This document shows, piece after piece, positions 9,902 through 57,483 of a DNA stretch of 64,000 bases. The notes below the pieces were generated by a model. It searched no databases. It worked only from the letters and a program-made list of their open reading frames with translations, and had not been told where the DNA came from. Source of the DNA: Protaetiibacter sp. SSC-01 (GTDB lineage Bacteria > Actinomycetota > Actinomycetes > Actinomycetales > Microbacteriaceae); NCBI RefSeq assembly GCF_014483895.1, contig NZ_CP059987.1, positions 1,488,001 to 1,552,000 on the forward strand, read 5' to 3'. Position numbers and translations under genes: made by a program. How positions within the stretch are numbered: position 1 is the first letter of the stretch; every line of letters begins with the position of its first letter.

Positions 9902-10593
9902 GCGAACTCCTTGCGGTAGGCGCCCACGACCTCCGTCGGCTCCCCCACCTCGACGAGCCGGCCCCTGTCGAAACGCAGCGCGATGTCGCAGCGCTCCGCG
10001 AGCTCGAGGTCGTGGGTCACGACGACGAGCTGCGCGTCGAGGTCGTCGAGCAGGATGCGGCCGATCCGCCGGGCGTTGCCGAGATCGAGGAGCGTCGTGG
10101 GCTCGTCGGCCACGACGAGCCGTGGCTCGCGCACGAGCACGGATGCGAGGGCGAGCAGCTGCTTCTGGCCGCCCGAGAGGCTGAAGACGGGTGTCTCCGC
10201 GTGGTCGGCGAGGCCGTAGGCGTCGAGCACGATCGCGACCCGCTCGTCGATCTCGGCGCGCGTGAGCCCCGCGCCGCGCAGGGACAGCCGCACGTCCTCC
10301 GCGACGGTCGGCATGAGCAGCTGCGCGTCCGGGTTCGTGAAGACGAAGCCGACCGACGCGCGGGCGCGCTTGGGCTCGCGCGCGACATCGACGCCGTGCA
10401 CGCGGACGGTGCCCGACATCGGGCGCACGAGGCCGTTGAGTAGTCGTGCGAACGTCGACTTCCCCGAACCGTTGGCACCCACCACGGCGATCCGTCGGGC
10501 GTCGAGGCGCACGTCGACGTCTTCGAGGATGCGGCGGCCGTCGAGGTCGACGGTCACCGCCTCGAGCTCGATCGCGTGCGCGGCATCGCTCAT
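9898..10593 (-). CDS. bioM: Biotin ECF transporter ATPase BioM
   Basis: A 231-residue ECF-type ATPase. Walker A is VGANGSGKST, the Q-loop region is NPDAQLLMPTV, the signature is LSGGQKQ, and Walker B is LVVADEPTTLLD, followed by the switch His in VTHDLE. It powers biotin uptake with BioN and the substrate-binding membrane protein BioY. The start is ATG 10593, overlapping the bioY stop (ATGA); the longer upstream reading belongs to another frame's shadow. Its regulation is presumably that of bioY, by BioQ. Confidence 0.92.
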   Translation of the reverse strand: MSDAAHAIELEAVTVDLDGRRILEDVDVRLDARRIAVVGANGSGKSTFARLLNGLVRPMSGTVRVHGVDVAREPKRARASVGFVFTNPDAQLLMPTVAEDVRLSLRGAGLTRAEIDERVAIVLDAYGLADHAETPVFSLSGGQKQLLALASVLVREPRLVVADEPTTLLDLGNARRIGRILLDDLDAQLVVVTHDLELAERCDIALRFDRGRLVEVGEPTEVVGAYRKEFA

Positions 10594-11222
10594 CGGGCGG
10601 GTGCGCCCTCGGGGGCCCGCCGCGCTTCTGCTGTGCGCTCCCGACGGCGGCCGAAGACGGGCGGGTACGCGCGCCAGAGCGCCATCGTGATGATCGTCGC
10701 GAGCACGACCTTGATGAGGTCGCCCGGGATGAACGCGAGGCTCGTAAGGGCGGTGGCGCCGAGCGGCAGTCCCGTGACGGCGGCCTGCACGGGGATGCCG
10801 AGCGCGTAGACGACGAGGATGCCGCCCACGACGGCGCCGACGGCGACGCGCCACGCGGCGAGACGGCCCCGCCCGGAGTGGGCGATGAGGCCCGTGACGA
10901 ATGCGCCGGGGATCCAGCCGACGAGGTAGCCGGCCGTGACGCCCACGAAGACGGCTGCGCCGCCGTGGCCGCCCGCGAGCAGCGGCAGCCCGACGAGCAC
11001 GAGCAGCTCGAAGACGAGCACCGCCGCGGCGCCGCGCCAGGCCCCGAGCACGGTGCCCGCGAGGATCACCCCGAGGGTCTGCGCCGTGATCGGCACGAGC
11101 CCGGGCACGGGGATCGGCGCGATGAGCCCGAGGGCCGCGATGAGAGCGGCGAAGACGGCGATGCGCGCGATGTCGCGCGTGTCGAAGCGGCGCGTGTCGA
11201 AGCGGCGGGGTGCGTCGGTCAT
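10590..11222 (-). CDS. bioY: Biotin transporter S-component BioY
   Basis: A 210-residue hydrophobic protein, the biotin-binding S-component. It has about six transmembrane helices and the BioY-like stretches IPVPGLVPITAQTLGV and GGHGGAAVFVGVTAGYLVGW near the middle. ATG 11222 is preceded by GAGGA at suitable distance. The N-terminus carries an imperfect short duplication (RRFDTRRFDTRD). Its promoter is divergent from bioQ, and two 13-bp BioQ-type palindromes lie in the gap, so biotin or biotin status probably controls uptake through BioQ. Confidence 0.93.
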   Translation of the reverse strand: MTDAPRRFDTRRFDTRDIARIAVFAALIAALGLIAPIPVPGLVPITAQTLGVILAGTVLGAWRGAAAVLVFELLVLVGLPLLAGGHGGAAVFVGVTAGYLVGWIPGAFVTGLIAHSGRGRLAAWRVAVGAVVGGILVVYALGIPVQAAVTGLPLGATALTSLAFIPGDLIKVVLATIITMALWRAYPPVFGRRRERTAEARRAPEGAPAR

Positions 11223-52257: not shown

Positions 52258-52358
52258 CTGGTTGAGTAGCACCGCAGGCGCGTGTCGAAACCAGCCCCGT
52301 GGTGACGCGGTGCGTCGGGGTGGTTTCGACACGCCCGCTCGCGCGGGCTACTCAACCA
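52258..52358. repeat. Inverted pair of CTGGTTGAGTAGC palindromic elements (pair 3)
   Basis: A forward copy at 52258-52294 (CTGGTTGAGTAGC ... GTGTCGAAACCAG) faces a reverse copy at 52321-52358 (TGGTTTCGACACG ... GCTACTCAACCA). They separate the phosphoesterase gene from the broken genes beyond. Confidence 0.85.
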
Positions 52359-52389
52359 CCGGGGCGGGGCCGTGCCGCGACGGGCTCCG

Positions 52390-52665
52390 TCACCGACGGG
52401 GCGAGCGCACCACCCCGCGCACAGCCACGCCGGCGAGCACTCCCAGGAACACCCAGGGGCCCGCGACGAGCAGAGGATCGAGCCACGCGTGCTTCACATC
52501 CGCGCGGTTGCGGCCTAAGCGCGAGCTCAGGCCGCCGCGACGACCCTCGGTCAGCACCCCGGTCTGCGTCACGGGATTGTCGGGATGCTTCGTCGCGAGC
52601 GAGCGCACGTGACTGCCGAACGCATCCACCCGATCGCCCGCGACGAGCAGCAGCCAGTGCGCGGC
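52390..52665 (-). pseudogene. 3' fragment of an unrecognised membrane-anchored protein
   Basis: A frame of 91 codons ends at TGA 52390 and reads coding-like (strong G/C third positions): LLLVAGDRVDAFGSHVRS, then DVKHAWLDPLLVAGPWVFLG with a C-terminal hydrophobic helix and a basic tail (RGVVRSPRR). It has no start of its own and abuts the end of the catalase remnant in another frame. I do not recognise the family. It may be the tail of a gene whose front was lost. Confidence 0.5.
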
Positions 52666-53102
52666 CCTCGGAAGCCGCCGCGCCGTCGGAGAAGTTGATG
52701 TACTCGTAGTGCACGTCCTGGTTCTCCTTCGCCTGCGGGAAGTTGCTCGGCACGGGCAGATCCTCGACGCCCTCGGCACGCAGCTCGGCCGCGGCCGCGA
52801 TCCACTGGCTCTGGTGCATCGTGTCGCGCGCGATGAGGAAGCCGAGCAGGTCCCGCACGCCCCGCGTCGTCGGTCATGTGGTAAAGCCGCGCCGCCTGCA
52901 GGCGCCCCTGCATCTCGCCGTTCGCGTTCGCGGTGAAGTCGGCGAGCAGGTTGCCGCTCGCGGTGATGTACGAGCCGCTCCACGGGTTGCCGTTGCTGTC
53001 GACGGGGCGGGCGCCGGCGCCCGCGACGATCGCGTGCTGCACATTCATACCCCCGACGACCGCGGCTACGACCGGGTCGTCCCGCACGGCATCCTCGACT
53101 CC
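52661..53102 (-). pseudogene. Manganese catalase remnant, frameshifted and truncated
   Basis: The minus strand reads the middle of a Mn (di-manganese, ferritin-like) catalase: NVQHAIVAGAGARPVDSNGN, SGNLLADFTANANGEMQGRL, LYHMTDD, then after a frameshift GVRDLLGFLIARDTMHQSQW and PVPSNFPQAKENQDVHYEYI. The frame changes at a CCCC run (52860-52863), where one extra base breaks the reading. The N-terminal third (including first metal ligands) and the C-terminal end are missing; intact homologues have roughly 290 residues. The fragment is non-functional unless the shift is a sequencing error, and even then it is truncated. Confidence 0.75.
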
Positions 53103-53329
53103 TCGGTCTCCACCCGCCGGGAAGCCCCGCTCGGGGCCGGATGTCCTCACAACGCTAAGAACCATCGACAGGATGCGTGAGGGTGTTGATTCCGGATGCC
53201 GTGAGTGCTACCGCGCGCGCGATTCGCTCCCGAGGTGGCCCGCTTCCCCCGATGGAACCGTACGGCCCCCTCTCCGCTAGTCTCCGAGTGAGGCTGCTGT
53301 TTCGGATCCAGCCCTGTCGAGGGAGCAAC
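53103..53329. other. Intergenic region before the phytochrome gene
   Basis: No gene is recognised in these 227 bases. TAGTCT at 53278-53283 is a plausible -10 for the phytochrome gene, giving a leader of about 40 bases, with GGGAG (53321-53325) as ribosome site. Confidence 0.4.
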
Positions 53330-55261
53330 GTGGACCCATCTGAACTCGCAACCCACCCGGATGAACTGCGTCGGCTCGAGGAGTGCGCACGCGAGCCCAT
53401 CCGCACACCCGGCATGATCCAGGCGCACGGGACGCTGTTCGCGGTCGACCCCGAGAACGGCGAGATCGTCGTCGTGAGCGATGACGTCGCCGAGTGGCTC
53501 GGGCACGACATCGACGAGCTCGGGGTGCCGGAGCTCTCCCGCGCGGCGCGCAGAGCCGAGGCGCTCGACCCCGTCCGCCTCACTTGGCGCGGCGAGCCCG
53601 CCGACGCGATCGTGCACCGCGCCGGTGGGCTCAGCATCCTCGAAATCGAGCCGATGCCGTCGGGCGAGGAGTACGCGCGCGTGCCGGTCGTCACAGCCAT
53701 CCAGAAGCTCGCGAACGCGACATCTGTGGCGGAGCTGCGGGATATCGTGGTGGCCGAGCTGCGCCGGATCACAGGCTTCGACCGCGTCATGATGTACGAG
53801 TTCCAGCACGACGGTCACGGCATCGTCGTCGCAGAGGATCATCACCCCGAACTCGAGTCGTACCTCGGGCTGCACTTCCCGGCGTCGGACATCCCCACGC
53901 AGGCCCGCGCCCTCTACCTCTCGAAACTCGGGAGGGCGATCGCCGGCACCGAGGCGGCGCCGCGGCCGCTGCTCTCCACCCGCCTCGATCCCGCCTCGAT
54001 CGACCTCTCGGGCGCCGAGCTGCGCGCCGTGTCGCCGTACCACATCCAGTACATGCGGAACATGGGCCAGGCGTCCACCTTCTCGCTGTCGCTCGTCGAC
54101 CACGGTCGTCTTGTCGGCATGATCACGTGCGCCCATCGAACGGAGCGCCGCATCCCCGTGCTGCTGCGCCGTTCGCTCGAGGTGCTCGCGGGACAGCTCT
54201 CGCTCCAGGCGGCGTCGATGCGGGAGATCGAGCGTCTACGCCACACCGTCGAGATCAGCGAACGTCGTGCGGCGCTGCTGGCCCCCCTCTTCGCCTCCGA
54301 CGACGTCACGGCGGCGCTGTTCCAGGGTCGCGAGACGATCCTCGACCTCGTGCCCGCCGACGGCGTCGTCGCCCGAATCGGAACATCCTGGCGCGTCGCG
54401 GGGGTCGTGCCGCCGCTGGCCCCCATCGCCGGCATCGTCGAGCGGCTCGGCGACACGCCGATCGCGACCGACGCGCTCGAGCGCGACCGACCCGATATCG
54501 CGGCGCTCATGCCGGGGGTAGCGGGACTGCTCGCCGTCCCGCTCGCACAGAACGAGGGTGCGCTGCTGTTCTTCCGCGGCGAGGTGGCACAGAGCATCAC
54601 CTGGCTCGGCGATCCCGGTCCCGACAACCGTCCGAGCGGCCTCTCCCCGCGCGCGTCGTTCGCCCTGTGGAAGCAGCAGGTGCGCGGCCGCTCGGAGCCG
54701 TGGGGGGATGTCGCGGCCGAGGCGGTCGAGCTCGCCCACGACCTCGACCACGCCCTCAGCCGCCGGGCCGAGTCCCGGCTCGCGGAGCTCGCGATGCGCG
54801 ACGCCCTCACGGGCCTTCACAACCGTCGTTACCTCGTCGACCGTCTCGCGACGCGCGGTCCGGTCGGCCCCGACGGCAAGGCGCTGCTCTTCGTCGACCT
54901 CGACGACTTCAAGGGCGTCAACGACCGGTACGGCCACGAGACGGGAGACGCGGTCATCCTCGAGGTCGCACGGCGACTCCGGGCCAACTCGCGCGACCGC
55001 GACGACGTCGTGCGGCTCGGCGGCGACGAGTTCGTCGTGCTCATGGACGGCGTCACGGGCACCGATGTGCACGCGATCGCGGAGCGCCTCGTGGAGGCCG
55101 TCGCCGAGCCCATCGTCACCTCGTCGGGCGTCCTCCAGATCACCGCGTCGTGTGGCGTCGTCGTCGCCGAACCCGGAACACCGCGCACGGGCCTGCTCGA
55201 GGCTGCGGATGCGGCGATGTACCGCGCGAAGCGCGCGGGCCGCAACCGCATCGCGAGCTGA
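53330..55261 (+). CDS. Bacteriophytochrome with GGDEF diguanylate cyclase output
   Basis: A 643-residue red/far-red photoreceptor. The PAS domain has the bilin-attachment cysteine C19 in EECAREPIRTPG, aligned with BphP; the GAF domain has FPASDIPTQAR and the conserved His in SPYHIQYMRNMG; the PHY tongue has PRASF (SPRASFALWKQQ). The C-terminal GGDEF domain is catalytic (RLGGDEFVV) with an inhibitory I-site RDRD. It should bind biliverdin and make c-di-GMP depending on light. GTG 53330 has GGGAG 4 bases ahead. No heme oxygenase is adjacent. Confidence 0.94.
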   Translation: MDPSELATHPDELRRLEECAREPIRTPGMIQAHGTLFAVDPENGEIVVVSDDVAEWLGHDIDELGVPELSRAARRAEALDPVRLTWRGEPADAIVHRAGGLSILEIEPMPSGEEYARVPVVTAIQKLANATSVAELRDIVVAELRRITGFDRVMMYEFQHDGHGIVVAEDHHPELESYLGLHFPASDIPTQARALYLSKLGRAIAGTEAAPRPLLSTRLDPASIDLSGAELRAVSPYHIQYMRNMGQASTFSLSLVDHGRLVGMITCAHRTERRIPVLLRRSLEVLAGQLSLQAASMREIERLRHTVEISERRAALLAPLFASDDVTAALFQGRETILDLVPADGVVARIGTSWRVAGVVPPLAPIAGIVERLGDTPIATDALERDRPDIAALMPGVAGLLAVPLAQNEGALLFFRGEVAQSITWLGDPGPDNRPSGLSPRASFALWKQQVRGRSEPWGDVAAEAVELAHDLDHALSRRAESRLAELAMRDALTGLHNRRYLVDRLATRGPVGPDGKALLFVDLDDFKGVNDRYGHETGDAVILEVARRLRANSRDRDDVVRLGGDEFVVLMDGVTGTDVHAIAERLVEAVAEPIVTSSGVLQITASCGVVVAEPGTPRTGLLEAADAAMYRAKRAGRNRIAS

Positions 55262-55279
55262 GCGGTCGCCCGGCGGCCC

Positions 55280-55576
55280 CTAGGGCTGCGCTGCGGGCTC
55301 GGGCGTGATGCGCATGCCGTTCGCCGAGTTGGCCGAGTCGATGAGCTCTTCGAGCCACGCGCGGTTGATGTCAGTGACGACGGAGCCGAACTTGAAGCGC
55401 AGCGTCGCGGCGCTGCTGAGCCACACGCGCTCGCGTGAGCCGTCGGGCTGGTCGATCGTGAGCGCGAAGCTCTCGTTGCGACGCAGCTTGGCCAGGATGA
55501 CGTACTCGACGTGCGCGAGCGTGCGGTCGGGGAGCTCGAACGAGGCGGGCGGCGAGCCGTAATGCAGGTGTCCCAT
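55280..55576 (-). CDS. DUF7882 family small protein, paralogue A
   Basis: A 98-residue protein of a small family I recall from Microbacteriaceae as DUF7882, function unknown (some databases label members ATP-dependent DNA ligase, without motif support here). Shared features with the two paralogues below are MGxLxY, DRTLAHVEYVI, KLRRNESF, WLSS and SANSANGM. It is the most divergent copy. It converges on the phytochrome gene (18-base gap). TAGGAT lies 7 bases before the ATG, a leaderless arrangement. Confidence 0.8.
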   Translation of the reverse strand: MGHLHYGSPPASFELPDRTLAHVEYVILAKLRRNESFALTIDQPDGSRERVWLSSAATLRFKFGSVVTDINRAWLEELIDSANSANGMRITPEPAAQP

Positions 55577-55583
55577 CACGGCG

Positions 55584-55602
55584 ATCCTACGCGGGGTAGC
55601 CT
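55584..55602. promoter_or_regulatory. Divergent leaderless -10 boxes for DUF7882-A and the next gene
   Basis: TAGGAT (55584-55589, minus) lies 7 bases before the DUF7882-A ATG and TAGCCT (55597-55602, plus) lies 7 bases before GTG 55610. Only 33 bases separate the two coding regions. Confidence 0.55.
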
Positions 55603-55609
55603 GGTGAAC

Positions 55610-55879
55610 GTGACGATCGTTAACCGCCTCACCGTAGATGGCCGCGACTACTTCCTGCCGGAGCCCGTGACGGAGCTCAAGCAGCAGATCCTGGCGGCCA
55701 TCCAGGCCGGCGGCGGCTACGTGAACATCCCGCCGCTGCGCGGGGGCCCGGGCATCGACATCCTCTTCTCCCCCGGCATGCCCGTGACCTGGTCCCAGAT
55801 CGACGTCGGCGGGGTCGACGGCAATGTCGTGACGGATGAGGCGCCCCCTTCCGCCGTCGACGACGACTTCGGCCTCTAG
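55610..55879 (+). CDS. Small uncharacterised protein, divergent from DUF7882-A
   Basis: An 89-residue protein I cannot name. It reads VTIVNRLTVDGRDYFLPEPV, then a helical ELKQQILAAIQAGGGYVNIP and an acidic end (SAVDDDFGL). No signal peptide or membrane helix. GTG 55610 is preferred over GTG 55604 because a TAGCCT box is 7 bases upstream of it. Strong GC3 and a terminator after it support a real gene. It shares a divergent promoter gap with DUF7882-A, so they may be co-regulated. Confidence 0.7.
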   Translation: MTIVNRLTVDGRDYFLPEPVTELKQQILAAIQAGGGYVNIPPLRGGPGIDILFSPGMPVTWSQIDVGGVDGNVVTDEAPPSAVDDDFGL

Positions 55880-55886
55880 CACCGTC

Positions 55887-55903
55887 GGGGCGGCTTCCGC
55901 CCC
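55887..55903. terminator. Hairpin between convergent small gene and EAL gene
   Basis: GGGGCGG-ctt-CCGCCCC is a 7-bp perfect stem in the 45-base gap, with weak GTC/GAC outer pairing. Confidence 0.65.
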
Positions 55904-55924
55904 CTCGACGTACGACGGCCGAGC

Positions 55925-56710
55925 TCAGCTCACGACCGTCGCGAGCACCGGTTCGAGCGCGTCCGCGGGAAGCGGGGGCGAGAAGTAGAAGCCCTGCCCC
56001 CGGTCGCACCCCCACGAGAGCGCACGTGCCAGATCGACCTCGTTCTCGATGCCCTCCGCGACGATGTGCGCCCCGCGCTCGTGGGCGATCTCGCGCGCCT
56101 GGGCGACCAGCTCATCCACTCCCGCGCTGCGGTCCGCGAGGAGCGAGCGGTCGATCTTGAGCTCGGTGAACGGCACGTGCCGCAGGAGCTCGAGCGAGGT
56201 GTGGCCGGCACCGAAGTCGTCGATCGACACTCCGACACCGCCGTCGATGAGCTCCTGGAGCCAACGGGTCTCGTCGTCGGTCTCGCGCATCGCAGGCGAC
56301 TCGGTGATCTCTACCGTCACCGCGCCGCGGGGCAGGCCGAGCTCTTCGACGCGCCGCAGGATGCGGCGTGAGAACTCCGCGTCGAGCTCCGACGGGGAGA
56401 CGTTGAGCGCGACGCCCACGGCGACTCCGCGGCGGTGCCAGTCGGCGAGCTGGCGGCCGGACTCCTCGAGCATGACGCGCCCGATGTCGGCGATGAGGTG
56501 ATGCTGCTCGGCGAGGTGGATGAAGCGGTCCGGGAGCAGGAGGCCGTGGTCCGGATCGTTCCAACGGCACAGTGCCTCGAGCGCGACGACGCGTCCCGTC
56601 TTGAGGTCGTACTGGGGCTGGAAGTGCGCCGTGAGCTGCCCGGTCTCGAGCGCACGCCGAAGTCTGCCCGCGAGCTCGTCGTCTCGCTTCTCGCCGATTC
56701 CTTCGTGCAC
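55925..56710 (-). CDS. EAL-domain c-di-GMP phosphodiesterase
   Basis: A 261-residue stand-alone EAL protein that should hydrolyse c-di-GMP to pGpG. Catalytic motifs are intact: EAL in VALEALCRW, the Asn in LNVSPSE, EITES, DDFGAGHTSLELL, KIDRSLL and EGIE, then GQGFYFSPPL. GTG 56710 has GGAGGAGG 8 bases upstream and is favoured; ATG 56764 would add 18 residues and lies 5 bases after a TTATCT sequence, so a leaderless longer form is possible. No sensory domain is attached. It lies 0.7 kb from the phytochrome-GGDEF gene. Confidence 0.92.
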   Translation of the reverse strand: MHEGIGEKRDDELAGRLRRALETGQLTAHFQPQYDLKTGRVVALEALCRWNDPDHGLLLPDRFIHLAEQHHLIADIGRVMLEESGRQLADWHRRGVAVGVALNVSPSELDAEFSRRILRRVEELGLPRGAVTVEITESPAMRETDDETRWLQELIDGGVGVSIDDFGAGHTSLELLRHVPFTELKIDRSLLADRSAGVDELVAQAREIAHERGAHIVAEGIENEVDLARALSWGCDRGQGFYFSPPLPADALEPVLATVVS

Positions 56711-56837
56711 GGACCAAGCCTCCTCCACCTGGATTTCCGCAGCAAACCCGTGACAGGGGGCCATGAGCGAGATAACATGCCCCGCCCCCTCCGGGTCAAG
56801 GCCCGGCCCGGCGGACGGTCTAGCGGCGCCGCACCGG

Positions 56838-56843
56838 TAGTCT
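56838..56843 (+). promoter_or_regulatory. -10 box TAGTCT for leaderless DUF7882-B
   Basis: TAGTCT is exactly 7 bases before the ATG at 56851. Confidence 0.55.
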
Positions 56844-56850
56844 GCAAGGG

Positions 56851-57168
56851 ATGGGCACGCTCACCTACGACTCCAAGCTCCAGGTCTCGTTCGACGACCG
56901 TGTGCTCGCGCACCTGCAGGCCGTCATCTGGTCGAAGCTCCGCCGAGGCGAGCACTTCGCCTTCACCTGGACGGAGGCCTCCCGCGGCGCCTTCGGACGC
57001 ACGTCGATCTGGCTCTCGCCCGGCATCCCCGTGGCATTCGAGTACTTCGGGAGCCGCGCGCCGCGCCTCAACCCGGCGTGGATCCAGGTGCTCACGAAGT
57101 CGGCGAACTCCGCGGCCGGGCTCACGATCCTCCCCGAGCCCCCGGACCCCGGCGTACGCACCTCCTGA
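56851..57168 (+). CDS. DUF7882 family small protein, paralogue B
   Basis: A 105-residue member: MGTLTYDSKLQVSFDDRVLAHL, then KLRRGEHFAFTW, GRTSIWLSPG, FEYFGS and LNPAWIQVLTKSANSAAGL. It is more like paralogue C than A. Its TGA stop abuts the stop of paralogue C head to head (TGATCA at 57166-57171), leaving no intergenic base. Function unknown. It is divergent from the EAL gene. Confidence 0.8.
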   Translation: MGTLTYDSKLQVSFDDRVLAHLQAVIWSKLRRGEHFAFTWTEASRGAFGRTSIWLSPGIPVAFEYFGSRAPRLNPAWIQVLTKSANSAAGLTILPEPPDPGVRTS

Positions 57169-57483
57169 TCAGGTGGTGGCGTCCGCCTCTTCCACCTCGG
57201 GCAGCGGCACGAGACCGCCGGGCGAGTTGGCGGCCTTCGTCAACCGACGGATCCAGTCGGCGTTGAGCGGCACCTCGCGCTGGTCGAAGAACTCGAAGGT
57301 CAAGGGCGTGTCGGGGCCGATCCACAACGAGTTCCGCCCGCTCCCCTGAGCCGGCGTCTGCTCCCACGAGAACGAGAACGTCTCGCCGCGGCGGAGCTTC
57401 GCGAAGATCACGGCCCGCAGATGGGCGAGGAGCCGGTCGTCGAGCTCGAGTGTGCGGCTGGAGTTGTACGTCAGGATGCCCAC
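57169..57483 (-). CDS. DUF7882 family small protein, paralogue C
   Basis: A 104-residue member: VGILTYNSSRTLELDDRLLAHL, KLRRGETFSFSW, GRNSLWIGPD, LTFEFFDQ, LNADWIRRLTKAANSPGGL. It starts at GTG 57483; upstream GGGAG could be a ribosome site, and CATGCT 6 bases away is a weaker -10 than those of A and B. The gene meets paralogue B stop to stop. Three copies within 2.2 kb suggest local duplication followed by inversion. Confidence 0.8.
   Translation of the reverse strand: MGILTYNSSRTLELDDRLLAHLRAVIFAKLRRGETFSFSWEQTPAQGSGRNSLWIGPDTPLTFEFFDQREVPLNADWIRRLTKAANSPGGLVPLPEVEEADATT

Follow-up and report, generated by a model that had tools for sequence, protein, structure and literature searches.

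A recurrent c-di-GMP locus of Microbacteriaceae with s89 and DUF7882 small proteins as candidate readout

How do Microbacteriaceae read cyclic dimeric guanosine monophosphate (c-di-GMP)? PilZ proteins are small proteins for c-di-GMP readout, but of 60 genomes drawn from this family 33 have a GGDEF match and only 1 has a PilZ match (PF07238). The question is raised here by a locus in a stretch of 64,000 nucleotides of Protaetiibacter sp. SSC-01 (contig NZ_CP059987.1, positions 1,488,001 to 1,552,000), the whole of which is called the window. At 53330-57483 of the window, a phytochrome-GGDEF gene, an EAL gene and three genes (A, B and C) of the small-protein family DUF7882 (PF25355) were identified with Pfam, together with a gene of 89 residues designated s89 (Table 1). 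An earlier reading of the DNA letters (hereafter the sequence-only reading) had given the same gene content and coordinates, which Pfam bore out. Since such genes recur side by side, the small proteins probably take part in the reading of c-di-GMP by these cells. On balance, we lean towards the reading that the locus is one copy of a c-di-GMP module of Microbacteriaceae, in which s89 and dedicated DUF7882 proteins serve as the readout.

Recurrence was studied in the best 80 of 86 loci from a scan with an s89 alignment (74 assigned to Microbacteriaceae and 6 unassigned). The distance from s89 to EAL is at most 200 bp in 72 loci and at most 5 kb in 78; for DUF7882, it is at most 500 bp in 73 loci and at most 5 kb in another count of 78. 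GGDEF and phytochrome are found within 5 kb in 71 and 33 loci, respectively. Two loci lack one partner (L122 without EAL and L102 without DUF7882), and in both the sequence ends soon after s89. The linkage of s89, EAL, DUF7882 and GGDEF is well supported, and the member tied most closely to EAL is s89, which the sequence-only reading had left unnamed. Strong s89 matches (E < 1e-30) occur in 38 of 299 genomes of the family, belonging to 20 genera, or in 63 of 299 when weak matches are added. Among the 60 genomes, strong s89 is present in 13, each of which has an EAL match, and in none of the 34 EAL-less genomes; at 13 of the 14 strong s89 places, EAL is within 6 kb. Moreover, of the 31 genomes that have a phytochrome match (G274, whose match is below the curated cut-off, being counted among them), 23 contain s89, versus 15 of the 268 that have none. 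The phytochrome-region matches number 32 in 31 of the 299 genomes, or 31 in 30 genomes over the cut-off. In these 31 regions, s89, EAL and DUF7882 occur together in 9, window included, and DUF7882 lies within 5 kb of the phytochrome domains in 12.

The genome of the window itself (one contig of 2,958,807 bp) has six matches to DUF7882 and two each to GGDEF and EAL, and three, one and one of them, respectively, fall inside the 4.2 kb, which is more than chance. Around the second GGDEF/EAL pair of this genome (~2.615 Mb, L054), neither DUF7882 nor s89 was matched in the 20 kb of sequence retrieved. In another locus (L125:9293-10240), one DUF7882 gene is flanked by two diverged s89 copies, and the same doubling is seen in L142.

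With regard to the enzymes, both look active from their motifs, because 76 of 77 domains carry GGDEF and RxxD, the remaining one being cut by a contig end, and the EAL residues are seen in 81 of 81. GGDEF, RxxD, PRASF and CAREPI are visible in the phytochrome sequence of the window; their functional roles are presumed here. For EAL, 13 of the 16 motif columns checked are identical in all 81 aligned domains, including the second copy of the genome (E and L of the EAL motif, the R that follows it, and N, E, DD, K, D, E, E, Q and G), and variation is seen at A in EAL and at F and G in DDFG. The phosphodiesterase of the window has the complete set of residues that we take to be catalytic.

The phytochrome has the PAS-GAF-PHY-GGDEF architecture of PadC by Pfam, and it is 51% identical over 630 amino acids to its homologue in L109 (Microbacterium trichothecenolyticum), a locus that carries the same cluster as the window. 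We assume that L109 encodes the very PadC studied in PMC9587094. According to that paper, cyclase activity of a PadC of M. trichothecenolyticum is raised by red light, the range of the group being 2.2 to 13 fold. Red-light control of cyclase activity is reported there for homologues of the window protein. The paper seems not to discuss the small proteins, because neither DUF nor neighbour occurs in its main text.

The sensors are exchanged while EAL, s89 and DUF7882 stay. Some s89 loci have the phytochrome and others a different GGDEF protein, and five such other proteins (four of them from s89 loci) contained GAF in four cases and PAS in three above the cut-off. A homologue of the alpha/beta hydrolase whose gene precedes the GGDEF gene in relatives is found in 38 of the 80 s89 loci, and in L100 the gene for an Abhydrolase protein is directly followed by a PAS-GGDEF gene. 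This resembles, by gene adjacency, the RsbQ alpha/beta hydrolase and PAS, which PMC3183031 describes as a module for sensing that has cyclases among its several outputs; it is a feature of the relatives and not of the window. In addition, the cluster of L143 contains a Ser/Thr protein kinase gene (10284-11153) between s89 and the phytochrome gene. Ser/Thr kinase genes are also located between s89 and EAL in L152 and, adjoining the cluster rather than inside it, next to EAL in L148.

As for DUF7882, the sequence-only reading had set a co-location count across Microbacteriaceae as the test of its proposal. In the 60 genomes, GGDEF, EAL and DUF7882 matches were compared, and DUF7882 was present in 39 genomes with 1 to 15 copies each. 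The count covers the 150 of 204 matches listed, the other 54 being weaker copies. GGDEF or EAL is within 5 kb of 19 of the 150 listed places versus 0.87 expected from gene numbers and rounded genome sizes, or of 17 of 145 versus 0.83 when the genome of the window is left out. This enrichment, about twenty-fold by statistics that ignore relatedness, comes from 12 genomes of 12 genera and is above background, as the proposal of the sequence-only reading required. In fetched sequence, annotated with home-built profiles rather than Pfam, a GGDEF/EAL gene was found within ~10 kb in 7 of 40 sampled DUF7882 regions versus 1 of 33 control regions. The sample consisted of every fourth of the 150 listed rows from row 2 (38 rows), from which two rows of the window's genome and one in an already sampled region were dropped and to which five hand-picked rows were added; the controls were taken 100 kb upstream in coordinates, seven of the 40 regions having no control. 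Across the class, 19 of 394 genomes have a DUF7882 match, every one of them in Microbacteriaceae. The co-location of DUF7882 with c-di-GMP genes is real but limited to a minority of the copies. In G009, a GGDEF gene split over two frames directly adjoins a DUF7882 gene (L165:9783-10709).

DUF7882 is already known from another light-sensing context. CryoRhodopsin genes have an adjoining small gene in all genomes analysed, whose products are predicted to form pentamers reminiscent of bacterial PH domains, and PF25355 was deposited in Pfam for these putative CryoRhodopsin transducers (PMC12227055). In this respect DUF7882 is not entirely undescribed, although the sequence-only reading had named the locus its best candidate for an undescribed system. 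In the open-access literature searched, DUF7882 and PF25355 are named only in that paper, and c-di-GMP with Microbacteriaceae was found only under titles on other topics, none with phytochrome. The window proteins share with the transducers the Pfam family and the arrangement of a small soluble protein encoded beside a photoreceptor. They differ in that the partners are a phytochrome-cyclase and EAL, that there are three copies, that s89 is present and that no rhodopsin match (PF01036) exists in the genome, in which no DUF7882 gene lies next to a CryoRhodopsin gene; PF01036 was found in 83 of 299 relatives. From 102 listed rhodopsin places, 20 low-scoring (E 3e-31 to 3e-24) and 20 high-scoring ones (E 3e-46 to 2e-37) were sampled, and DUF7882 lies within 1 kb of 10 of the former versus none of the latter, the 'CryoR-like' label of the former being based on score rather than motifs. 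Two further rhodopsins with an adjoining DUF7882 gene (G007 and G052) are outside this count.

The neighbours of other DUF7882 copies are mixed, with no Pfam family having more than four members among 102 neighbour proteins; these are what remains of 132 neighbour open reading frames chosen by a rule on GC at third codon positions (GC3), after 16 over 520 amino acids were left out and 14 of the other 116, including all four of L177, were not scanned. Phage origin was ruled out, as B gave nothing in 50,697 phage records by tblastn. Among 18 plasmid records with a DUF7882 match, the best place is annotated as 'ATP-dependent DNA ligase' in nine, a name for which we saw no support. On one Microbacterium plasmid (L229:3481-4357), two genes, one of which is the DUF7882 match, both bear this annotation.

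Table 1. Features of the c-di-GMP locus, in window coordinates.
Feature	Position	Strand	Basis
PadC-type bacteriophytochrome, PAS_2-GAF-PHY-GGDEF, 643 aa, GTG start	53330..55261	+	Pfam
DUF7882 copy A, 98 aa	55280..55576	-	PF25355, 105 bits
Likely -10 element of A, TAGGAT, 7 nt before ATG, leaderless	55584..55589	-	TANNNT survey
Likely -10 element of s89, TAGCCT, 7 nt before GTG, leaderless	55597..55602	+	TANNNT survey
s89, 89 aa, unnamed family, conserved core, acidic tail with hydrophobic last residue	55610..55879	+	homologue searches, tail count
EAL phosphodiesterase, stand-alone, 279 aa	55925..56764	-	PF00563, 218 bits
Likely -10 element of B, TAGTCT, 7 nt before ATG, leaderless	56838..56843	+	TANNNT survey
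DUF7882 copy B, 105 aa, AF2 model with mean pLDDT 91.9	56851..57168	+	PF25355, 124 bits
DUF7882 copy C, 104 aa, GTG start, convergent with B	57169..57483	-	PF25355, 120 bits

The three paralogues are all far above the curated cut-off of PF25355 (27 bits) and belong to DUF7882 by Pfam, and all the residues that the sequence-only reading described as shared are present in A, B and C. It had also placed two of them in divergent gaps beside c-di-GMP genes. This is correct for B, which is divergent from EAL over 86 bp. It is not correct for A, which is divergent from s89 (33 bp) and convergent with the phytochrome gene (18 bp), so that it has no divergent c-di-GMP neighbour. The s89 and EAL genes are convergent with a gap of 45 bp, and the stop codons of the convergent B and C abut. 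Of the 138 DUF7882 genes in the window and loci L075-L154, 71 have TANNNT 6-8 nt ahead of the start codon, compared with 5 of 52 from the DUF7882 regions sampled, and 36 of 83 s89 genes have it at a spacing of 6-7; no -35 motif was seen at these promoters. Such placement suggests leaderless transcription of s89 and DUF7882 genes in these loci, which would explain the short divergent gap. Next to the phytochrome gene, a manganese-catalase gene (52352-53165) looks broken, part of the profile being in one frame and the rest seemingly in another.

The s89 protein matched no family over the cut-off in Pfam, NCBIfam or PHROGs. In its core, which has a Gly/Pro-rich loop PPLRGGPG, 39 of 65 positions are conserved at 90% or more among aligned sequences that are close relatives. 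Its tail is variable, but 76 of 83 proteins combine two or more acidic residues among the final eight with a hydrophobic last residue, a rule satisfied by only 2 of 139 DUF7882, 5 of 81 EAL and 4 of 77 GGDEF proteins. The AlphaFold2 (AF2) model of B, a monomer (mean pLDDT 91.9, pTM 0.83), is composed of strands 2-6 and 10-14, helix 16-31, strands 36-42, 49-55 and 61-65, and helix 75-85; for the CryoRhodopsin transducers, a predicted pentamer has been published. Over 54 DUF7882 sequences K29 and R32 are invariant and R31 is nearly so, all at the end of helix 1 in this model. By sequence, the best relatives in the PDB had E-values of 0.65 for DUF7882 and 0.46 for s89. In a tree of 164 DUF7882 proteins, which has few columns and many unresolved forks, the s89-linked copies need 11 label changes versus a shuffled mean of 50. 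Copy A falls in a supported group with the A-position copies of L072, L075, L076, L079, L090 and L132, and copy C groups with the same-position copies of L072, L075, L079 and L090. Alignments A3 and A4 exclude loci L075-L099.

The reading that we prefer may be put as follows. A sensor-coupled diguanylate cyclase, here the PadC-type phytochrome responding to red light, would make c-di-GMP, the stand-alone EAL enzyme would degrade it, and s89 and the dedicated DUF7882 paralogues, to which reading or gating of c-di-GMP most likely falls, would form the local readout. By analogy with what has been proposed for the CryoRhodopsin relatives, DUF7882 may be an oligomeric protein-binding scaffold. s89 would couple DUF7882 to the EAL/c-di-GMP state, and its acidic tail with the hydrophobic end may be what it docks with. 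The data show the gene set and its recurrence, the intact catalytic motifs, the exchange of sensors, the co-occurrence of s89 with EAL and the monomer model of B, while we infer the physical interaction, the scaffold role, the signal direction and a downstream target. Such a readout is apparently missing otherwise, because PilZ, the one receptor type searched, is rare in the 60 genomes and gave no match in the genome of the window or in A, B, C and s89; s89 and DUF7882 could fill the same role.

Several observations weigh against this reading. L123, with both flanks present, has neither EAL nor DUF7882, and five of the nine s89 loci without GGDEF have ~10 kb on both sides (L092, L096, L121, L150 and L153). 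At the 14 strong s89 places, DUF7882 is within 6 kb at 12 (among the matches listed) and GGDEF at only 9. Both phytochrome and s89 are absent from five genomes of the genus to which the window belongs, and the cluster is therefore patchy. Alignment of DUF7882 with s89 by hhalign gave a probability of 1-2%, so no relation between them was detected. Some regions that lack c-di-GMP genes (L160, L170, L189 and L192) also have distant s89-like genes adjoining DUF7882, as found with a profile whose building favoured matches next to DUF7882. G045 has 14 DUF7882 copies and no GGDEF or EAL match, and 131 of the 150 listed copies have no GGDEF/EAL within 5 kb. The counts are also not independent, because all homologues are in one bacterial family. 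In G045, the distant s89-like genes stand beside DUF7882 genes at L189:9423-12526. Because of the 131 distant copies and because 13 of the 39 DUF7882-bearing genomes have no GGDEF match, DUF7882 is not specific to c-di-GMP, and a c-di-GMP-only family was ruled out. The red-light/c-di-GMP circuit that the sequence-only reading proposed for DUF7882 is thus upheld in part: the co-location exceeds chance and the same set recurs in other genera, but most copies are distant and red light is not essential, phytochrome being near s89 in fewer than half of the loci.

Other explanations can be given for the same data. s89 or the c-di-GMP-linked DUF7882 proteins might bind c-di-GMP directly and replace PilZ as receptor, which is a tentative idea at present. 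The near absence of PilZ, the restriction of s89 to EAL-bearing genomes among the 60, the conserved s89 core with its PPLRGGPG loop and the invariant K29 and R32 with the near-invariant R31 of DUF7882 are consistent with it, although DUF7882 is also present in genomes without GGDEF or EAL and PilZ was the only receptor type in the search. A broader form, in which s89 and dedicated DUF7882 would be a new c-di-GMP receptor or adaptor replacing PilZ in Microbacteriaceae and DUF7882 a general scaffold for different sensors (CryoRhodopsins, phytochrome-cyclases and PAS/GAF-cyclases), also seems to us possible but on the unlikely side. We would give a similarly low chance to the small proteins being regulators of the enzymes, with s89 restraining EAL and DUF7882 relaying further input, such as that from rhodopsins. 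The proximity of EAL to s89 (200 bp or less in 72 of 80 loci), the DUF7882 genes adjoining low-scoring rhodopsins and the swapping of sensors while EAL, s89 and DUF7882 remain fit this idea; the widely varying gene order does not.

Less probable still, DUF7882 would simply be a common family with many copies per genome, found in several unrelated settings of which c-di-GMP loci are one, and only s89 would matter for c-di-GMP. The many distant copies and their mixed neighbours would agree with this, but the twenty-fold enrichment and the clustering of s89-linked copies in the tree argue against it. It is very improbable, and already hard to maintain, that the neighbourhood reflects inherited gene order and has no functional meaning. 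All copies are indeed in one family, and 19 Microbacterium loci share common flanks. However, these 19 are only the largest of 27 groups into which 61 full-length s89 loci (>19.5 kb) fall by flanking sequence, and 24 gene-order patterns occur among the 80 loci, some only through contig ends. Genome-wide co-occurrence of s89 and phytochrome also disagrees with inherited order. The pyruvate kinase gene that flanks the window cluster occurs in 1 of 114 loci, and that one is a close relative. This flank and the 27 flank groups ruled out that the clustering is caused by local synteny.

Finally, a conserved locus with a making enzyme, a degrading enzyme and two small-protein families provides concrete candidates for the readout of c-di-GMP in Microbacteriaceae. 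DUF7882, so far a proposed rhodopsin transducer, gains a second, different context with soluble proteins.

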